A model generated the notes under the pieces. It saw only the letters and a program-made list of their open reading frames with translations, did no database searches and was not told the DNA's origin. A program made the position numbers and the translations under genes. 64,000 bases of DNA from Liolophura sinensis. Its lineage: Eukaryota; Mollusca; Polyplacophora; Chitonida; Chitonidae. Where the stretch lies: contig NC_088296.1 of NCBI RefSeq assembly GCF_032854445.1, positions 8,840,706 to 8,904,705 of the forward strand. Direction: 5' to 3'. Below, in pieces: positions 29,072-41,445 of the stretch. Every line of letters begins with the position of its first letter. Within the stretch, counting starts at the first letter, position 1.

Positions 29072-29649
29072 TCAGGAAGTGCTTATCATATCACAGAGAA
29101 CTGGAGGCAGAGTGGCAGAGTCCCCCGTTACCAGACGAGCAGACGCAGATCCAGATTCAGACCAGACACCAAACAAAACCCATGGCACGAGAGGCTCTGT
29201 GACGATAACATCACTGTAAGTGTACATTACCTGGTTGTTGTCACAGTCCAGGACTGTCAGTGCGTGGTCATCACAGTCCAGGTACACACCCAGGTGATGA
29301 GGTAGTGTGTAACGTCTGTACTGACGATAGTCAGGTTTGATCTCACCACCACCACGGTGACTATAACACTTGACCTCATCACCACGGTACCCCATATCAA
29401 TGTACCAGGAGTTACGGCCAGGGGCTGTCCTCCTCACACCACAGCTCTCCTGTGTCACTCCTACACGACAGTAACAGCCATGTGAACAGGTGATCTGCAC
29501 CTCCCAGTAGTACCTGCCCGTCTGGTAACGCCCGTCTGTCACAGCTCTCCCACACCACCCCGCGGACAAGTCCTCAGCCTTTACCACTGAGCCGCTGTCA
29601 GTAATTCTCAGCTCACTGTCGTCTGTCTCTGTGAATCTCAGCGTCGGCT
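29072..29649 (-). CDS. TRIM last exon: B30.2/SPRY domain
   Basis: Acceptor TTTTTTGCAG at 29652-29650. Encodes PRY-like LRFTETDDSELRITDSGSVV and the SPRY core, ending with DMISTS and TGA. The whole domain is on one exon, as in vertebrate TRIM genes. Confidence 0.9.
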
Positions 29650-32600
29650 CTGCAAAAACACAACAGAAGCAGCATAAACAACAGCAAACCATAAACACAC
29701 GCTGTAAGACAGAGGTGTAAATACCTGTACACATACCGTGGTTTTACTTTCTCCACACAATCTCTAGGAATAAAATGTCATATACTGCCGACACGAATGT
29801 AATTTATACACAGATCTCTGTCATTTTCAGCCAGTTTAAAAGAGTTGAGCTTCGACAAGAACTGGATCCATCACTAAATGACGGGTACGACATAGACCAA
29901 GTACTAGGTTAAAATTCAAACTTTTAGCACTCTAATTTGTTTGAAACTTATCACCTACAACAAGAACAATACCTTCCTCTATCCGATACTTGGTTTTAGT
30001 TGTCAGTTATGGCACATTTGAACACAAAAATCACTATGATGCTGAAGTAAGCCTGCTGGCATTCGTGAAGTAACCAGCTACCGAAGCCGTCTGTGTAGTA
30101 AGGGAGGTAACTCGCCACGCATAACTTATAAAGTGACTTTCCTTGCCATAATACCCCAAAGACTATTTAATCCATCAGAATTATTAGTAGTAAAGATTTG
30201 GATTAAATTTTCTGCAGTAGATTTAAAAAAAAAAAAGAGTTGAATATTTCAACTTTAAAAAACAAAAACAAACGTATATCAGGTGAGGAAATAAATGTAG
30301 ATCAAAAATTATTACTATATAGGCCTACATACATGGAATTTCTACCCCTGAATAATAATACTGGTAAAACAAAAACAGATATGAGGAATTATATAATATT
30401 AAGCTGGTATAAGAGGCATTGCATATATGCATATATATATAGAGCTTTTACTCCATACCTATTGTTTTATGTATATTGTTATTTACAAAGATTATTGTTA
30501 TTTATTAAGCTTGTATAATCCCCTCATGTCTTGTTTTCACCAGTATCTGTTTTATATATATTATATTCACCACCCTCCACCGACCCACCCTGTTTTTGAA
30601 ATTCTAGCTTCAACTGTACATTTTATTCTCTTTTCTTCAGTTTTTCATGCAATACCAGCTTAATATTATGTAATTCACTCTCAATCAGTCCTGCCCTTCT
30701 CCTAACTTCCCATACTTTGTCTTTCTACATGCATGCATTATATACCTATGCGCTACCTGTATATAAGCTTATGTGTTCTTTACTGTATATATCTTCTGAT
30801 GATGCCACAAACATAGAGACCGAAATATACACTTATATTATGACTCCAATATTCCAAGTCACTTCCTGTCCTCCTCCAACAGTAAGCCTACTGATCTGTA
30901 CACATTCATAACACTCAGGGGAACAATATGTTATCTGTTCTGTATTAACAGTACTCCTGCTGATTTGCAAACATGCAGTACCCTGCCATGTGTCCTGTTC
31001 TAACAGTGCACTTGCTAATTTGTATACACGAGGTAAGTATCACCCAGACTATGAGAGCTACCCTACCATGTGTCCTGTTCTAACAGTGCACTTGCTGATA
31101 TCTACACATGATGTATATATCACCCAGACAGTGAGAGGTATCCTGCCATGTGTCCTGTTCTAACAGTGCACTTGCTGATTTGTACACATGATGTATATAT
31201 CACCCAGACAGTGAGAGGTACCCTGCCATGTGTCCTGTTCTAACAGTGCACTTGCTGATATCTACACATGATGTATATATCACCCAGACAGTGAGAGGTA
31301 CCCTGCCATGTGTCCTGTTCTAACAGTGCACTTGCTGATTTGTACACATGATGTATATATCACCCAGACAGTGAGAGGTACCCTGCCATGTGTCCTCTTC
31401 TAACAGTGCACTTGCTGATATCTACACATGATGTATATATCACCCAGACAGTGAGAGGTATCCTGCCATGTGCCCTGTTCTAACAGTGCACTTGCTGATT
31501 TGTACACATGATGTATATATCACCCAGACAGTGAGAGGTACCCTGTCATCTGTCCTGTTCTAACAGTGCACTTGCTCATTTGTACACATGTTGTATATAT
31601 CACCCAGACAGTGAGAGGTACCCTGCCATCTGTCCTGTTCTAACAGTGCACTTGCTGATTTGTACACATGTTGTATATACCACCCAGACAGTGAGAGGTA
31701 CCCTGACATGTGTCCTGTTCTAACAGTGCACTTGCTGATTTGTACATATAATGTATATATCACCCAGACAGTGAGAGGTACCCTGACATGTGTCCTGTTC
31801 TAACAGTGCACTTGCTGATTTGTACATATATTGTATATATCACCCAGACAGTGAGAGGTACCCTGCCAGGTGTCCTGTTCTAACAGTGCACTTGCTCATT
31901 TGTACACATGTTGTATATACCACCCAGACAGTGAGAGGTACCCTGCCATCTGTCCTGTTCTAACAGTGCACTTGCTGATTTGTACACATGTTGTACATAT
32001 CACCCAGACAGCGAGAGGTACCGTGACATGTGTCTTGTTCTAACAGTGCACTTGCTGATTTGTACACATGATGTATATATCACCCAGACAGTGAGAGGTA
32101 TCCTGCCATGTGTCCTGTTCTAACAGTACACTTGCTGATTTGTACACATGATGTATATATCACCCAGACAGTGAGAGGTATCCTGCCATGTGTCCTGTTC
32201 TAACAGTGCACTTGCTGATTTGTACACATGATGTATATATCACCCAGACAGTGAGAGGTATCCTGCCATGTGTCCTGTTCTAACAGTGCACTTGCTGATT
32301 TGTACACATGATGTATATATCACCCAGACAGTGAGAAGTACACTGTCATGTGTCCTGTTCTAACAGTGCACTTGCTGATTTGTACACATGATGTATATAT
32401 CACCCAGACAGTGAGAGGTATCCTGCCATGTGTCCTGTTCTAACAGTACACTTGCTGATTTGTACACATGTTGTATATACCACCCAGACAGTGAGAGGTA
32501 CCCTGCCATGTGTCCTGTTCTAACAGTGCACTTGCTGATTTGTACACATGTTGTATATATCACCCAGACAGTGAGAGGTACCCTGCCATCTGTCCTGTTC

Positions 32601-35600
32601 TAACAGTGCACTTGCTTATTTGTACACATGATATATATATCACCCAGACAGTGAGAGGTACCCTGCCATGTGTCCTGTTCTAACAGTGCACTTGCTGATT
32701 TGTACACATGATGTATATATCACCCAGACAGTGAGAGGTACCCTGCCATGTGTCCTGTTCTAACAGTGCACTTGCTGATTTGTACACATGATGTATACAT
32801 CACCCAGACAGTGAGAGGTACCCTGCCATGTGTCCTGTTCTAACAGTACACTTGCTGATTTGTACACATGTTGTATATACCACTCAGACAGTGAGAGGTA
32901 CCTTGCCATGTGTCCTGTTCTAACAGTGCACTTGCTGATTTGTACACATGTTGTATATACCACCCAGACAGTGAGAGGTACACTGCCATGTGTCCTGTTC
33001 TAACAGTGCACTTGCTGATTTGTACACATGATGTATATATCACCCAGACAGTGAGAGGTACCCTGCCAGGTGTCCTGTTCTAACAGTGCACTTGCTGATT
33101 TGTACACATGATGTATATATCACCCAGACAGTGAGAGGTATCCTGCCATGTGTCCTGTTCTAACAGTACACTTGCTGATTTGTACACATGATGTAAATAT
33201 CACCCAGACACTGAGAGGTGCATTACCTACTGCCCTGTTCTAACTGTACACCTGCTGATATATAACTCTGCAATGTACTTTCCTTTTTTTTTAAAAAAAA
33301 CACATATTATTGTATACACTACATTGTTATTCATTTCTGAGCAAATCATACTGTTTATAGCTTACATTGGCTTTTAATTTCTTAGAACAGCCTACTGAAT
33401 TCCTTTTGACTTCTGAGCCCAGTGTACACTTAACAAGTACCATATCGCTACACTATTTTTATGCCTCACATTAAATGTGTTCTCTGTACACAACCTACTG
33501 TATACCTCCCATTAGTCTGTGTCCTCTGTGCACACCCTACTGTATACCTCACATTAGTTTCTGTTTTCCATGCACACCCTACTGTTTACCTCACATTAGT
33601 TTCTGTTTTCTGTGCACACCCTACTGTTTACCTCACATTAGTTTCTGTTTTCTGTGCACACCCTACTGTTTACCTCACATTAGTTTCTGTTTTCTGTTCA
33701 CACCCTACTATATGCCTCACATTCGTATGTGTCTTTCGGGCACACCCTACTGTATACCTCACATTAGTTTGTGTCTTTTGCGTACGCCCTACCGCATGCC
33801 TCACAATAGTTTGTGCTCTCTGTACACACCCTAGTATATACCCCACATTAGTTTGTGTCTTTGTAATGTAATGCTTTATTTGTTTAACAAGGATTCCCCA
33901 CAGCCCAATGGCCACTCGGGGGTCTCCTCGACAACATATCACATATGTACAGGACAAAACAAGGAATTGGAACAAACGTAAATAAAAGTAATGATACAGA
34001 TAGATAATAGACCGAATAGACTATACACATATGTATGTAATATATGTAACAACAAAAGTATGTACACTACAAAAGAATGAATCATATCATATGTAATAAA
34101 ATGAGGCTACAATGCACATAATGACTACTTACTGAAATAATGTTTATCATTATCATTTAATACAAAGGGAAATTTCAATGCTACCCATCAATTTAAAATC
34201 TCTTTGATTCTGCAACAAATTTATGCACAGTTTTTAAGACAATTTTGTTTTCATCAGGTTTTAGTTCATCGGATCCAAATAATACTATATTACAACCATA
34301 TTTTGAACACTAAGGAATAAATATTGTCTACATATTCACATAAATGATTACAATTTGGGCACGCGCGAACATTGCATAAATAGTACTTATAAATTCGCCA
34401 TTCAGAGCACTAAGTCCCATTCTGATTTGGCACTGAATAACACAGTGGTACGAATCGAACATGTTGTACAGATGAGTGAGTTCTTTATTTAAAAAAACAG
34501 AAATTGCTTTATTATTCCAACTGAGGCATTGCAGATATGACACAGTAAAAATGTTCCAATCTTTGAAAGTTTTGGGGAAGAAAGAGGAGGAAAATAATTG
34601 AATGCGTGTTTTAAAAAGTCGAACATTGTCCCTGTTTCGAAGGTTGTATGTGTTTGTATCAGTAATATTTCTGCCGTCTAATATTCTTTTTAGATAAGGA
34701 GGATTAAGTGCATTTACAATTTTATGGAAGAGTAGAATTCTATGTCATCGACATCGATTATGTGAAGATTCCCATTCGAGTTCATTTAATAAACTATTGT
34801 ATGATGTCTGACATTATCCTCCAGTACAGAGAAATGCCAGGCGTCTTTGGATAGCTTCAAGAGAGTATGCCGATTTAAGGCTAGAGTTGTCGTACAGAAC
34901 ATTGCCATATTTGATTGACAACCATAATAAGCTTTGGGAGAGAGTGACGAGACATTTTCTGGAGAGAGTTTTCTTTGCTCTGTAGAAAGTGCTTAATGTC
35001 CTGTTTGATTTCTTTACTACAGCTCGAAAGTGTTTGTTCCACTTACCATTATACTGCACAATAATGCCGAGGTGTTTGTAGGACCGAATGCTCTTTACAT
35101 TAACACCGTTTAAATACAAATTAGGATGACAAGCGTTACATTTTAGCGTTACACAGCGTGTCCTCTGTGCACACCCTACTGTATGCCTCACATTAGTCTG
35201 TGTCTTCTGGGCACACCCTATTGTATACCTTACATTAGTCTGTGTCTTCTGTACACACCCTACTGTATACCTCACATCAGTTTGTGTTTTCTGTGCACAC
35301 CCTATTGTATACCTCACATCAGTTTCTGTTTTCTGTGCACACCCTACTGTATACCTCACATCAATTTGTGTTTTCTGGGCACACCCTACTGTATGCCTCA
35401 CAATAGTTTGTGCTCTCTGTACACACCCTACTGTATGCCTCACATTAGTCTGTGTTGCACACCCTATTGCATGCCCCACATTACATGTAGCTTGTATCTC
35501 TGTTGCCCACACTATTTCATGCCTCATATTTAGTATCATCATAGTTTGTTTCTTTGTTGCCCACTCTGATGCATACCTCAGATTAGTTTGTGTCACCTTA

Positions 35601-38600
35601 ATTAATGCCGGACATAAGTTTATGTTTGTGCACACCCTAATGCATGCCTCACATTAGTTTGTGTCTTCTGTGTACACCCTATTGTACACCGCATTACTTT
35701 GTGTCTTTTGCCCACACCCTACTGTAAGCCTGACATCAGTTTGTGCTTTGTTCACACCCTAATGTACACCTCAAACTCGCTAAGCTTTTTGTACACTCTT
35801 CTCAATTTTGTTACTCTTGGAATACTGTTCATTTTCAGGGTGCACCCTGCTGTATTACGGCTCATTTCGGTTTGTTTTATTCTTAACACAGTTTGTGTCT
35901 TTGACTCACATACCAGTGTAAACACTACAGTCGCTTATGTCTTCTGAGCACACCCTACGGTACACCATTTATACATATAACAACCTACTTGTAACACATA
36001 GGGGTGACATTTGTCCACCGACTGCTGCTCCTAAGTCCTGACGTTCTTGCACTGTTTCTTTTACAGTCACCTGTCTAGGAACAACTTGGTCATGTTGTAG
36101 AGAATCTAGAAGCTTCTGTCTGCTGACTTCATGTTTCTCCAGGTCGGCTCTTATCTCATTCAATTGGTCATCAATTCTGTGAAAAGAGGAGAGAAAACAA
36201 AGACACACAGTCATGTGGTAATCCTGTGTACCATATTTTGTGATTTGTCTGAGTAAATGTATGTTTGAACACTAGATATATTTTATACTTGGGTCATGTT
36301 TTGGACAACTACAGTGTTGGTACTCAGTGTTACAGAAACACATCTGCTGACAACAGTCATGTGCACATGTATAACAAACCTAGAGAGGTATAACACAATT
36401 ATACATACGTTTTTGTGAAGTCTGTGGAACCCTGTCAAAAAACAGAAATGATCATACATATAAAATCATGTAAACATCATAACCTAAACAAAGATTCTTA
36501 ACCTACTCTATTCCTTCTAAAATCTGGGTCACCTGGTTTGCTCATTTTAGCCAATATATTTATAATCCTAGCAGAAATATTGAGTTTCTTTTCTCTCACA
36601 TGGTTAGACCATCTAATGGACAACATACTCATATCGTTACTTTTCCAAAATGCTGGTAAAGTAATGTAAAATTCTACTTTCAACACTACTAATATCTGTT
36701 CCAAATTTTAGAAGAATTAGGGTATACTTTCACCACAACATGTAACAAGAACACAGTTATAACTGAAATGTCTTACTTCCCCTATAGTACACAGGGACCC
36801 TTGGCTCTTCCCTTAAACAATTAGACCACTTCCTAGTCAATCACAGTCAAAATCAGCTCTAAATTCCAGTGTAATAAATTCTTCTTGGAGCTTTTAACAG
36901 TGAAATTTTCCCCCAAAGATTTCCCGCCAACCGAATCTTAGTTGAAAACAAAACCATTTTGTTCCACCGAGTGCATTGAAAACAGTAACCAACTTGATGT
37001 TAGTGGTTGTATAAATCCTACGTTGTCATAAGGATTTAATTCTATGCTACTGTCAGAGAAGCAATCCTTTATTAATTTCACAAGTTTTGTGACAAAGTTT
37101 TATAACAATGAAATACACTACAGTTATCTCCCCTTCCCATAGCAGCTGTGCGAAGAATATAAATCAAAAGTCCAGGGTAGAAGTCTTCTAAAGAGAAGGA
37201 TATAAACCAACGAAATCAGGATAATGAAGAAATGGCTTAATTCTGGTCTTCTTGTTAGTAGTCCTTTGTTACGGCTGTTTTATGGTTATTTTACGGCATG
37301 TTTATGAAAACAATAGCCTACAGTAAAATTTAAGTTTAAATGAAATTTTCTTGTGCATAAAACAAGGATGATGTTTAAACTCGCAAACAAACAAATACCT
37401 CAAACACAGTAAACGATATCATATTTTGTGTGTTACAAGCTTGTGAAAGTAGCCGTGTGTTAATGGCTTATCGCCTATGGGTCTGAACTTTCTGATCAGG
37501 AAGCAGTCGATATCATCCAGATGACTGAAAATTTGGACAACATACTGAGCCACGACATGATGGTTTGTTTGATTGGTGTTTTACGTCGTGCTCAACATAT
37601 TTCTCTTATATGATGGCGTTAAGAATTGTGGTTGAAGGAAACTGGGCAGAGCCAGGGGGGACATCAACCGAGATATGGTTGTCTATATACGGTTTGTACA
37701 TTGGCTAATTTATTGTTTGAAACACTGTCAAGGCTTTATTACTGTTCGTATTCACACCTCTTTTTCGAAAAACATCAAACAACATACTCTCTTTCAATAT
37801 TACATAGATAGGATCATGGAGTTGTTTAGTAGTCTAATCGCAGAGCGATTACGTTTATGGGTAGAAAAACGGACAGCGACCGGAGAGAACCACTGAACAA
37901 AGTGAAGCAGTTGAACACTGGACATAAAACTAGATCTGGCAACATGAGATGGATTTGAACACCTCATCACTGTTCATTAGTGTCACTGTATGAGGCTGGT
38001 CACAGGTTCAATAATGTGACAAAGGTAAATGAGATGCCTCTGTGTACATACTCAACATACATATCACATTTGTTTACAAATGAGCGGTCAGAACCAAGAT
38101 ATCTACAGCCCATACATGTAAGAAAACTATATATGTTCTCTGAAGCTCATAAATTATTGACAGGTCGTCCTGTGTGGTTAGTTGAAGTATTTAACTGGAG
38201 TTGAGGCAGCTGAACCAATGTTAGAGATTGTGCATGTTTGACTTACCTGTAAAAACTTGATGTCCACTGACGCCAATAAATCCTTGGAAGCCTGTACCAT
38301 CCTCTCCATTTCCTGGGCCTGTAGCTGGAAATGTTTGAGTATAGCACTACACTCCACACTCCACTGTGAATAGCGGGTTTTTATGCCATCTAAGGACTGT
38401 TGTTTCCAGGCTTGTAAGGCTTCCAAGGCTGCACAATATGCTCTTTCTACCTCTTGAGTGTGAAGTTCCTGGGTTTCCTGACAAACAGAAACAACGTTTA
38501 TTATCTCATCCAGACCATTACAGGTGTGTTCAAGAAATTATACATGCCTGTGTAACAGAGTGGAATATAAGCGCCACATAACTGTATCTACAATGTACTT

Positions 38601-40970
38601 CCTGGATGGCGGGATTTCACTTTAGTTTGGCGGTGTTCATGTGTCGACTCAGAAACATTCTTGGTTCATTATTACAACTGGTGCTTCGAGCAGGGTAAGA
38701 TGGTGCTGCCTTTATGCTGTGGAGATCACCAGCGGTTTGGTTCAAACACCAAGAGTGTCACCCTGGGATCAAGAGACGTTTATTAATCCCAGGTGTCGCC
38801 CCATCACATGAGTCAGCGAGTGCTTGTGGTCTAACGCCGTACTTAACAATTCTTCAGTCATATGACGACAAAGATATCCTTAGAGTGCATGCAATGTGCC
38901 TCCTTGTTGCAGGACTGACACTACTAGACAAACTTGACCTTTGGCTCACCACTGGTGTCGTTAATCGGTATTCATCAATAAAATCATTTCAGGCGATGAT
39001 TATAGAATCATACTGTGTATTCTATAGATAACGAGTAAGTGAGTGCTTAGAGTTTAACGTCGTACGTCACAATTTTTCAGTCATATGACGACAAAGGAGT
39101 CCTTAAAGTGCATGTACGTGTAATATACCTCCTTGTTGTCGGACGAATTTCCACCGTTCTTTTATCTAGTGCTGCTTCACAGAGACGCCTTACCGAAGGC
39201 ATTATACTGATACGGGTCAACCAGTAGTTGCACTATCCCCTTCATGCTGAATGCCAAGCGAGGAAGTTACAACTTCCTCTTTTAAAGTCTATGGTGTGAC
39301 TTGATCCTGAATCTACCGCTCGTGAGGCGGACGCTCGACCAACTGTGCTATCCGGGTCGGTCCCCACCACATATGCGGAGTACGTGTATACAATATAGAT
39401 ATTATGACAGTGTACGATCGGCGATGAATGTATCTACTGGAGTTGCCAGAGGTGGGCATATCGCGTGTGTATCACTGAGAAGAAAGTCATAACAATGATA
39501 TGATAGTCTGATTAGATAAATCAGAAAGAGGTAAATAGACCATCATGCAAATGAGTCGCCGCAACAGTCCGTGGATTACCCTGTTTAAGTTTTTGTAAAA
39601 AATCGTCGCTGTTCAGCTTTAACTCTTTAATTGTAATCTACACATATATAATATGTGACAAGAATAAATTTATCAAGACTAGATAATTAACAGCTGTATG
39701 TTTCCTGGATTTGTCCATGATAGCAATAATTTACACACGCAAAATGAGTCACCAAGTATGCAATAAATCACAAGTTGACCAAGTGTCATCAAAACTACCA
39801 ACCTGTATCTTATTGTGCAGCCTCATAACTCCTGACAGTGATTCTTTAGTTTCTTGTAGCACTTTCTCCAGTTCACTCGTCTTGTTCACAACGACTGGCT
39901 GTAATGGAAAAAAAAACTGCATTAAAAATATGCCTTCCAAACGACATACTACAGTACAGGATAAAAAGCCCCATTCGGCAATTTCGATTACAAACTTTGG
40001 GTCAATATATAGTTCCAAATCATGACATATTTATATTGATTAATGACCTATATACTAGCGTGGTGCATGATTTAGACTGTGATTTAAGTCATTCGCTTAG
40101 AACATCCTTGCATCTTTCTAACATCATTGAAAACTGTTTACTACTTCTCTTTGCATGATTTCAAAGTAATTTTGAACTTACTTACAATTTCTTAGTTTTT
40201 CGTGGTTCGCATTAATCGTTATGTTGGGGATTGACTTTACGATTAATGACTCAGAACATCCATTTTGGTTGTTGGCTGATATACGAATGTCTTTTTCGCA
40301 TTACCTTGTCATTCTCCGCAGCAGATGGTATATCTTGCATAGCATGTTTCGGATGGTCAACCACACACCCCATACAGATCACCCTCCGACAGGGTACACA
40401 GTACAAGCAGAATGGCTGACCATGTCTCGCACATGACACTTGCTGAGTTGCTTCTTCATCTCTGCCTCTGGTCTGTCGCTGTGAGGTTTCCTGAGAGATG
40501 TACTCCAGGGATGAAATCAGCCGGTGACGTTTAACAGCCCCTCTCATGGGATGAAAAGTAGCCAGACAGTCTTTACAATATAGGAAACAGCAGTCAGTAC
40601 AAAACTTTACAGCTTTAGTCTGATTATCATCCTCACACAGAGAACAATATGGGGTATCATCCTCAACCTTCACAGCAGAAGAGAACCTCTCCACTATTTC
40701 AGCCAGATGAAAGTTGGGAGGCAGACCAGCCACACCTTCTCTCCCCAGACTGGTTGGTGTCCGACATACTGGGCATGAGATGTCACCACTCTCACTCCTC
40801 GTGCTACAGGAGACCTCATCAGTCTGTCCAGGTTTAGACTTGCCAGCATACACACAAATACACTCCCTGCAAAAACTGTGCTGACATGGTAACGTTACTG
40901 GTTTCCGGAATGTTTCTACACAAATCGGACATGTGAGAACCTCTTCAGGATTTTCCTTGCTTTCAGCCAT
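29072..40970 (-). CDS. TRIM-family E3 ubiquitin ligase (RING, B-boxes, coiled coil, SPRY), six coding exons
   Basis: Coding exons: 40970-40305, 39898-39803, 38477-38247, 36431-36409, 36176-35989 and 29649-29072. Lengths are 666, 96, 231, 23, 188 and 578 bases, giving 593 residues and TGA. All boundaries have GT-AG signals and matching phases (0, 0, 0, 2, 1). Residues 14-70 are a C3HC4 RING (CPIC, CQHSFC, CPVC); about 109-150 and 180-212 are two B-boxes (CSLC, CTDC; CARHGQPFCLYCVPC, HPKHAM). About 223-400 is mostly helical and charged coiled coil. From about 402 the B30.2/SPRY domain shows GRYYWEVQI, CRVGVTQ, LGVYLDCDDHALTVLD and PWVLFGVW. RING proteins of this class transfer ubiquitin; SPRY selects the target. 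Many TRIMs act in innate immunity, but the substrate here is unknown. A noncoding 5' exon is likely at 42600-42543, with its acceptor at 40989. Confidence 0.9.
30930..33255. repeat. 80-bp minisatellite, about 29 copies, in the TRIM last intron
   Basis: Unit CCTGTTCTAACAGTGCACTT, GCTGATTTGTACACATGATG, TATATATCACCCAGACAGTG, AGAGGTACCCTGCCATGTGT. Copies are very similar (a few differences each) and exactly 80 bases, implying recent homogenisation. In the first copies TGATATCTAC and TGATTTGTAC alternate, giving a 160-base higher-order unit. ATGTTG and ATGATG types are interspersed later. Confidence 0.95.
33256..33460. other. Spacer between two minisatellites
   Basis: Short AT-rich spacer, no feature recognised. 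Confidence 0.4.
33461..33868. repeat. 42-bp minisatellite, left part
   Basis: Unit CACATTAGTTTCTGTTTTCT, GTGCACACCCTACTGTTTAC, CT. Continues at 35155-35950 beyond a LINE insertion. Frames with a 14-residue period on both strands are by-products. Confidence 0.9.
33869..35155 (-). mobile_element. CR1-like LINE 3' end inserted in the 42-bp minisatellite
   Basis: The minus strand from about 35150 encodes the end of a reverse transcriptase: YKHLGIIVQYNGKWNKHF, KTLSRKCLVTLSQSLLW, IKYGNVLYD and LEAIQRRLAFL. After a stop near 34814 the frame resumes with LNPPYLKRILDGRN and LRNRDNVRLFKTRIQ. The 3' end carries AATAAAG and a CATTACATTAC repeat, typical of CR1-type elements. Truncated and with at least one in-frame stop, so dead. 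Confidence 0.8.
35156..35950. repeat. 42-bp minisatellite, right part
   Basis: Same unit as 33461-33868 with more variation (CACACCCTACTGTATGCCTC, ACATTAGTCTGTGTCTTCTG). It ends about 40 bases from TRIM exon 5. Confidence 0.85.
35989..36176 (-). CDS. TRIM exon 5: end of coiled coil and linker
   Basis: Acceptor TTTTCACAG. Encodes IDDQLNEIRADLEKHEVSRQ, then a linker. The donor GTAGGT leaves one base of a split codon, which fits the SPRY exon's phase. The donor is the least certain boundary of the gene. Confidence 0.75.
36409..36431 (-). CDS. TRIM exon 4: 23-base microexon
   Basis: Between TTTTTTGACAG and GTATGT. Encodes GSTDFTK and two bases of a threonine codon completed by the next exon. 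Without it exon 5 would open with a stop codon, so it is required. The size equals the 23-base exon known in many vertebrate TRIM genes. Confidence 0.85.
37567..37675 (-). mobile_element. SINE family A fragment in TRIM intron
   Basis: GTTTGATTGGTGTTTTACGT, CGTGCTCAACATATTTCTCT and GAAACTGGGCAGAGCCAGGG. Tail part only. Confidence 0.8.
38247..38477 (-). CDS. TRIM exon 3: coiled coil, 231 bases
   Basis: Acceptor TTTGTCAG, donor GTAAGT. Encodes a long amphipathic helix including ALQAWKQQSLDGIKTRYSQW and LQAQEMERMVQASKDLLASV. Phase 0 at both ends. Confidence 0.9.
38815..38965 (-). mobile_element. SINE family B fragment
   Basis: CAGCGAGTGCTTGTGGTCTA, ACGCCGTACTTAACAATTCT, TCAGTCATATGACGACAAAG and CCTCCTTGTTGCAGGACTGA: tail half of the second SINE family, directly before a fuller copy. 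Confidence 0.7.
39030..39362 (-). mobile_element. SINE family B, near full length
   Basis: The minus-strand head at 39362 reads GACCCGGATAGCACAGTTGG, then TCGAGCGTCCGCCT, an Arg/Ala-type tRNA-like promoter. It is followed by a GTCACACC block, the GAGGAAGTTGTAACTTCCTC-like hairpin, and the tail TTTTTCAGTCATATGACGAC with GTGAGTG at the end. Lies in a TRIM intron. Confidence 0.85.
39803..39898 (-). CDS. TRIM exon 2: coiled coil, 96 bases
   Basis: Encodes PVVVNKTSELEKVLQETKES then LSGVMRLHNKIQ. Phase 0 at both ends; donor GTTGGT. Confidence 0.85.
40020..40295 (+). repeat. Dispersed repeat, partner of 11556-11830
   Basis: See 11556-11830. It reaches to within 10 bases of the TRIM exon 1 donor. 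Confidence 0.5.
40305..40970 (-). CDS. TRIM exon 1: RING and two B-boxes
   Basis: Starts MAESKENPEEVLTCPIC. The ATG follows a TTTCAG acceptor by 18 bases, so it is an internal exon of the transcript. 222 codons, phase 0 donor GTAATG. A 55-residue insertion-like loop with GKSKPGQTDE lies between RING cysteines 6 and 7, longer than the usual 15-25. Confidence 0.9.
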
Positions 40971-41445
40971 TACACCCTCGGTTTTTCACTGAAATAAAAC
41001 CAGCTAAGTACTTAGCCTGGTACAAATACAGGTCTTCCCATTTATGAAAATATAAAATTTCAACACAGTACACCGTCTCCATCTGCAGTTCAGTGCCTGT
41101 TCCTCTCTTCCAACAACATATGGGGTACAGTATTTTTTGTCGCTATTGCTGAAGCAGCATTACTATACATATGGTATATGAGAGTTTGAGTGCCTCGCTT
41201 CCCTGAGTAGAAATAACTGCTTAGTTAGACATTTGACGATTCTAGCATTTATCATGCATGAGACAGTTTTTTGACAAATATCTGGTCAAGCCAGTTTGGC
41301 CAGACGTGTTTGCAAGTGATGACACGTTTATAAAAGCTCCTTCCATGAACAGCAGATTGTCGTGTGAAAATGAAAGTCTGCTGATTTAAAGGTAAGACCA
41401 GCCAAACAGCAAATACGATTAACAGAAATGGTGGGACTTCAGGTA

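Follow-up and report, generated by a model that had tools for sequence, protein, structure and literature searches.

A chiton TRIM gene carries a 96-231-23 coiled-coil exon ladder that probably predates the TRIM classes

Whether the exon plan of a gene can outlast the divergence of its protein, to the extent of being recognised at the base level in a mollusc and in vertebrates, is the question raised by a TRIM gene in a window of 64,000 nucleotides (the whole stretch of DNA that was analysed) from the chiton Liolophura sinensis. In TRIM proteins, the RING acts as an E3 ligase, the coiled coil makes the dimer and the SPRY domain reads the target, and a ladder of coiled-coil exons of 96, 231 and 23 nt would be a mark of class IV. 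The explanation that accounts best for the data, and in which we place considerable confidence, is that of a probably working chiton TRIM E3 gene belonging to an expanded family, with an inherited 96-231-23 ladder that predates both the TRIM classes and the split of protostomes and deuterostomes. As such, the novelty lies in the age and spread of the exon plan, the TRIM gene itself being of a known kind; in the open papers searched, none on the exon ladder in molluscs was found.

The gene comprises six coding exons across 11.9 kb (Table 1), with a coding sequence of 1782 nt and an open frame of 593 aa, five GT-AG introns out of five and junction phases of 0, 0, 0, 2 and 1. On re-reading, the sizes and phases given for the coiled-coil exons by the initial annotation, i.e., 96, 231 and 23 nt with phases 0, 0, 0 and 2, were exact. 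Its further claim of a SPRY domain on one last exon stood once that exon had been located by a SPRY search; the interval it had reported covers exons 1 to 5 only, the SPRY exon lying 6.3 kb beyond. Exon 1 ends 13 residues past the last histidine of B-box 2 (hereafter His+13), and the microexon is situated 1815 nt downstream of exon 3. When this microexon is omitted, the junction reads CAG/AAT TGA TGA (the slash marking the junction), so that, as had been predicted, a stop is met at the start of exon 5, namely at its second codon.

Table 1. Features of the TRIM gene, with positions in the window
Feature	Position	Strand	Description
Acceptor-like AG	40989..40990	-	18 nt upstream of the ATG, T-rich stretch before it; read by eye; possible end of a 5' UTR intron
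Coding exon 1	40305..40970	-	666 nt; RING, B-box 1, B-box 2; phase 0 at end
Coding exon 2	39803..39898	-	96 nt; start of the coiled coil; phase 0/0
Coding exon 3	38247..38477	-	231 nt; coiled coil, ending in FLQ; phase 0/0
Coding exon 4 (microexon)	36409..36431	-	23 nt; GSTDFTK + 2 nt; phase 0/2
Coding exon 5	35989..36176	-	188 nt; phase 2/1
Intron 5	29650..35988	-	6.3 kb; tandem repeats abundant (80-bp and 42-bp units)
Coding exon 6	29072..29649	-	578 nt including stop; SPRY; entry phase 1; boundaries read by eye

The introns hold elements of their own. In intron 5, positions 30978-33259 are occupied by a tandem array of 28.5 copies of the 80-base unit, 94% alike, and positions 33460-33858 and 35158-35455 by two arrays of the 42-base unit, which on the plus strand present long open frames (translation HPTVYLTLVCVF) and are a simple repeat rather than a gene. 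On the minus strand of the same intron, an open frame at 34814-35100 includes a stretch resembling, by eye, the terminal part of a reverse transcriptase from a retrotransposon (KSIRSYKHLGIIVQ...). Intron 2 contains, at 39040-39360 on the minus strand, a probable SINE with a tRNA-like start (GATAGCACAGTTGGTCGAGCGTCCGCC) and a tail of a type common in mollusc genomes.

Considering the 593-aa protein, the RING exceeds the Pfam cut-off (zf-RING_UBOX, E 5.1e-11), and both B-boxes are borderline, the first with 27 bits against a cut-off of 27 (ANCHR-like_BBOX) and the second with 24.5 bits against 24.1 (zf-B_box); the B-box cysteines and histidines are invariant among five family members. The SPRY domain is recognised in the protein (E 9.7e-10) as well as on its exon alone (E 1.2e-10), and neither COS box nor FN3 was found in the protein by Pfam at E 0.001. 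The profile of exon 3 matched TRIM25 coiled coils in the PDB at E 0.36, ranking below four non-TRIM chains. Between the Pfam bounds of the two B-boxes (150 and 176) lie 25 residues, against 13-20 residues in human TRIMs according to Sardiello 2008, a distance that is not a criterion of membership. The same survey describes group 2 TRIM genes as about 10 kb in size and often clustered, two thirds of them with 6-7 coding exons (Sardiello 2008), and the chiton gene shares these traits with its 6 coding exons, 11.9 kb and 61 near copies on one contig. The class IV features that it displays are the SPRY domain on a single C-terminal exon and the exact 96-231-23 sizes. From this reading of its exons and domains, the window gene is probably an intact and functional TRIM-type E3 ubiquitin ligase gene of the chiton.

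The genome searched (609,464,459 bases in 632 contigs, the window lying within contig C2) contains many relatives. With 150 of 190 candidates scored, the exon-3 peptide gave at least 108 matches at E 0.001 or better, at least 72 of them near copies (E 1.1e-28 or better, each with at least 74% identity) and at least 61 of these 72 on the 28-Mb contig C2; a genome-wide SPRY search gave 72 matches, some of them to exons that are no longer intact. From about 7 kb to 27.2 Mb, this contig displays a very large TRIM-SPRY expansion, in which the exon-3 copies frequently form same-strand runs, some tens of kb apart as judged by eye. Such numbers weigh heavily against the idea that the gene reached the assembly by vertebrate contamination or horizontal transfer, for which the similarity of plan speaks and nothing further. 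On contig C8 of the same genome, moreover, eight molluscan haemocyanin beta-sandwich domains stand in a row, which bears out the molluscan origin first proposed for the gene and makes contamination or transfer a scarcely credible explanation. Scans of viral and genome contig collections for stray animal TRIM DNA returned no relative.

Among the best 30 exon-3 loci, which include the window gene and are taken here as the near-copy set, exon 3 measures 231 nt between AG and GT, with the same codons and free of stops, in all 30. Exon 2 measures 96 nt in 29 of them; L010 has a frame shift in that exon, L015 has a GC donor, and intron 2 is anywhere between 233 and 1325 nt long. The 23-nt exon is present in 18 of the 30 copies and was not found within a 1.5-kb flank in the other 12, the window gene, with its microexon at 1815 nt, being one of these. 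In the 17 loci with an exon 5 (14 near copies and 3 divergent ones), this exon starts, after AG, one base before the codon (phase 2) in every case, and in 16 of them the second codon of exon 5 would become a stop if the microexon were skipped, the exception being L050.

Chance microexons are easily seen and the structure of the window gene was read from DNA alone, so that the 23-nt exon could have been misread and the true transcript could use other splice sites. Against this, the same 23 nt with strong sites recur in 18 other loci; taking these together with the window gene, mean pairwise identity is 92% over the 23 nt, compared with 76% over the 60 nt upstream and 79% downstream, a figure for the exon that is favoured by the choice of the 18 copies on peptide similarity. 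The 23 nt are, besides, required for the frame, and a misread microexon is a most improbable account.

More distant copies keep much of the plan. The divergent set comprises 14 exon-3 copies at 13 loci (L039-L051) on contigs C13, C8 and C11, namely 13 of the 31 matches with less than 74% identity at E 0.001 or better (from 150 of 190 candidates scored, the other 18 being left out) and the weaker L051 (E 0.855). Exon 3 is exactly 231 nt between AG and GT in 13 of the 14, the second copy of L043, with its AG one base off, being scored as a miss; these 13 copies, 23-66% identical to the window gene, align with it over 77 codons without a gap. The 96-nt coiled-coil exon was recognised in 10 of the 14, by eye among ranked candidates and not always as the top one, and was not seen in L044, L047, L048 or the second L043 copy. 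The 23-nt exon was read in six copies, by similarity in L039, L040, L049 and L050 and by splice sites alone in L045 and L051, and no convincing candidate was seen for the other eight, of which seven (all but the first copy of L043) could be searched. Strong acceptor-donor pairs were counted in these loci, within 3 kb, for each of the 49 spacings between 11 and 59 nt; 5 of the 22 pairs stood at exactly 23 nt and at most 2 at any other spacing, with thresholds for "strong" that were set after the candidates had been seen. Locus L050, a TRIM gene with the ladder, gave no SPRY match within the 10 kb fetched; about 3.8-5.7 kb downstream of its exon 3, reading frames that look by eye like a macrodomain (DVDLIVNSTNTELQKAAG) belong either to a TRIM-macrodomain fusion or to a neighbouring gene.

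TRIM-like genes outside the family provide the wider comparison. Querying the genome with MID1 gave 54 matches, of which five are B-box exons from outside the family (L052-L056), sharing 25-31% identity with exon 1 of the window gene. In all five, exon 1 ends at a GT at His+13, as it does in nine family members, i.e., in 14 of 14 overall, the last B-box 2 histidine having been picked by eye. A 96-nt exon with splice sites lies in the flank of four of the five (chosen by eye, with one to four candidates each), and both genes readable that far have a 234-nt exon ending in LQ. The first of these two is a TRIM9-like gene spread over contig C6, with its RING exon at L054 and its coiled-coil exon at L060, which is taken as one gene from order and strand and of which the downstream exons match the FN3 stretch of TRIM9 with up to 69% identity. 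Its 234-nt exon ends in YLQ, and from this junction the next exon continues in phase 0 with no 23-nt piece cut off; no 96-nt exon was located for this gene. A nearby candidate, LSDALTYF, was a chance match, dropped once the real next exon had been read. In the second gene (L053 and L066), exon 1 runs to His+13 and is followed by exons of 96 nt, 234 nt (ending in FLQ) and 23 nt (LANALND), the latter flanked by a strong acceptor and the donor GTAAGT; a second 23-nt candidate at L053 (TGPGDVR, donor gtgata) was weaker and passed over. Judged by its B-boxes, 38% identical to those of MID1 and 26-27% to those of the window gene, the L053 gene is MID-like; a query with the MID1 C-terminus gave three weak matches (best E 0.01), none near L053. 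Exceptions to the plan exist: in the same genome, L058 (G000:C1:49230155), an intronless TRIM-like gene, carries B-boxes and the start of the coiled coil in one 1735-codon open frame that runs through the His+13 site and holds no ladder introns.

As the window gene shares cut points with the TRIM9-like and the MID-like genes found in its own genome, the plan appears as a trait of the TRIM module and not of SPRY TRIMs alone. The claim that it is older than the split of protostomes and deuterostomes is thus supported and even pushed further back, the sequences compared here indicating that the ladder probably predates the TRIM classes, and hence that split. Another account would be that the sizes agree by chance or convergence, the length of the coiled coil being set by structure so that equal spans come about without common introns. 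TRIM coiled coils do keep their length, and an equal span in rhesus TRIM5 alpha (see below) is observed without exon data; yet what recurs is the position of the cuts, codon for codon, together with their phases, and this in genes 25-31% identical in exon 1, and 23 nt stands out among the spacings (5 of 22), which renders chance or convergence very unlikely.

For the vertebrate side, published sizes are available for the zebrafish finTRIM genes, of which the exons measure 555-594, 96, 234, 154, 60 and about 545 nt, with coiled-coil exons of 96 and 234 nt and a B30.2 domain on one last exon; in most of the 84 genes the middle exons are predictions by the authors (van der Aa 2009, PMC2657112). 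By arithmetic, these sizes give phases of 0, 0, 0, 1 and 1, and the B30.2 exon would therefore be entered in phase 1, like the SPRY exon of the window gene. The succession of 234 and 154 leaves no separate 23-nt exon in finTRIM; 154 could be 23 plus 131. The finTRIM genes (ftr, class IV) thus differ from the chiton gene by 234 instead of 231 nt and by 154 + 60 instead of 23 + 188 nt, and have a B30.2 domain, the chiton gene having yielded no PRY match.

The three sizes themselves would be those of MEFV exons 4-6 and of TRIM5; genes of the TRIM5, TRIM21 and MEFV type have a single B-box and, ahead of the B30.2, additional short exons. In rhesus TRIM5 alpha (PDB 5w9a), the last histidine of B-box 2 is followed by 13, then 32 and 77 residues to LLQ/G, so that the spacing of 13+32+77 to LQ/G equals that of the chiton; the TRIM5 B-box 2 has two additional residues ahead of its last histidines. 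With MAFFT, the LQ junctions of TRIM5, the chiton gene and MID1 fall in the same columns, the coiled coil being aligned with compensating gaps. The corresponding exons of human MID1 are 96, 108 and 149 nt long. Compared with class I (MID1 and TRIM9), the chiton TRIM9-like gene has the same His+13 end of exon 1 and a coiled-coil exon ending in LQ in phase 0; the chiton genes of class I type differ from the window gene by 234 instead of 231 nt and, in the TRIM9-like gene, by the lack of a 23-nt exon.

As to MEFV, c.1588-69 and c.1610+96 are presumably the names of a pair of intronic SNPs. Two intronic MEFV SNPs lie 187 bp apart (PMC8929590 Table 1), which, together with these names, would put the exon between them (exon 6) at 23 nt, and MEFV exons 4 and 6-9 are called short elsewhere (PMC5702578). 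In the open papers searched, as far as their accessible text goes, neither 231 nor 23 nt is stated for a vertebrate TRIM gene. Of the match with vertebrate TRIM sizes put forward by the initial annotation, published figures bear out the 96 nt and the single B30.2 last exon, with 234 in the place of 231 (finTRIM, PMC2657112); sizes of 231 and 23 nt in other vertebrate TRIMs would agree with the TRIM5 alpha spacing and the MEFV SNPs.

Not being confined to SPRY TRIMs, the ladder does not prove class IV orthology. It is quite possible, if somewhat short of probable, that only the RING-B-box-coiled-coil ladder is ancient and that the SPRY exon was joined to it separately in chitons and in vertebrates, the chiton gene then being like class IV without being its orthologue. 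The cut points common to genes of another build are in keeping with such a separate capture, and so is the domain content, the SPRY being detected by Pfam in two of three SPRY exons and a PRY match in none of the three, even up to E 10. A SPRY match by tblastn was obtained in only 3 of the 13 divergent loci as fetched (L039, L040 and L049), a count for which the fetched DNA was short, L048 matching SPRY at C13:1263363, roughly 9 kb further along; the family SPRY search likewise missed diverged SPRY exons, e.g., those of L039 and L049. In the surveys, class IV TRIM is listed as vertebrate only (Marin 2012), and group 2 TRIMs are given as absent in invertebrates, with fly, worm and Ciona as the species examined (Sardiello 2008). 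On the other hand, the PDB chains nearest to the SPRY exon are the B30.2 domains of TRIM21, RFPL1 and TRIM10, matched weakly (E 0.004 to 0.007), and further matches are to an unrelated enzyme (E 0.025) and to MID1, of class I (E 0.03). Both lineages enter the SPRY exon in phase 1, an agreement that chance would bring in one case out of three, and canonical B30.2 TRIM-like genes are mentioned, partly as unpublished data, in Branchiostoma, Drosophila, C. elegans, Nematostella and Trichoplax (Boudinot 2011).

Selection differs between the two ends of the gene. The coiled-coil exon 3 is under purifying selection, with a median dN/dS of 0.166 among the 30 nearest copies, for which 431 of 435 pairs were used (those with dS of 0.02 or less being left out). 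Six SPRY exons (the window gene, L005, L006, L007, L067 and L068) gave dN/dS values of 0.99-2.16 over 15 pairs, with a mean dN of 0.087 and a mean dS of 0.060, and four of the six alone gave 0.97-2.16. Pooling three disjoint SPRY pairs, pN/pS amounts to 1.63 (one-sided Fisher P 0.02), in a test that is simple counting on few sequences; for three gene pairs, whose SPRY exon and exon 3 were joined by nearness on the contig, the contrast between the two exons gave P values of 0.0003, 0.067 and 0.044. In the same gene pairs, silent divergence is 0.05-0.06 in the SPRY exon against 0.12-0.34 in exon 3, a difference suggestive of gene conversion in the SPRY exon. Altogether, the SPRY exons point to diversifying selection together with gene conversion, and the excess of replacements follows a pattern as in an arms race.

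Under the explanation preferred here, the 96-231-23 ladder would be an architecture inherited with the RING-B-box-coiled-coil module and kept both because the coiled coil would tolerate almost no change in length and because the 23-nt exon is critical for the frame. With the microexon, the protein would continue to the SPRY domain; without it, translation would end at once and leave the module devoid of SPRY. In the protein, the RING may recruit an ubiquitin-charged E2, the coiled coil may form the dimer and the face of the SPRY domain may bind a variable target, probably of pathogens, which would thereby be tagged. The chiton TRIM family itself has expanded recently.

For TRIM genes at large, intron positions offer a test of the relations between classes that trees of short and fast domains cannot easily give. 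They also suggest a fixed ruler (His+13, 96, 231 or 234, and 23) for checking TRIM gene models, which may miss the microexon. More tentatively, and rather less probably than not, a gene with the whole RING-B1-B2-coiled-coil-SPRY build, junction phases of 0-0-0-2-1 and a 23-nt exon on which the frame depends may have existed already in the bilaterian ancestor. Arms-race families in which the SPRY exon changes fast would then have arisen from it in chitons as well as in vertebrates, and including or skipping the microexon would long have decided between the complete sensor and a product lacking the domain that binds the target. In two surveys, SPRY TRIMs of this sort are confined to vertebrates (Sardiello 2008; Marin 2012), and a large mollusc family of the same build, the same plan and the same selection would set the origin of this defence gene plan back in early animals.
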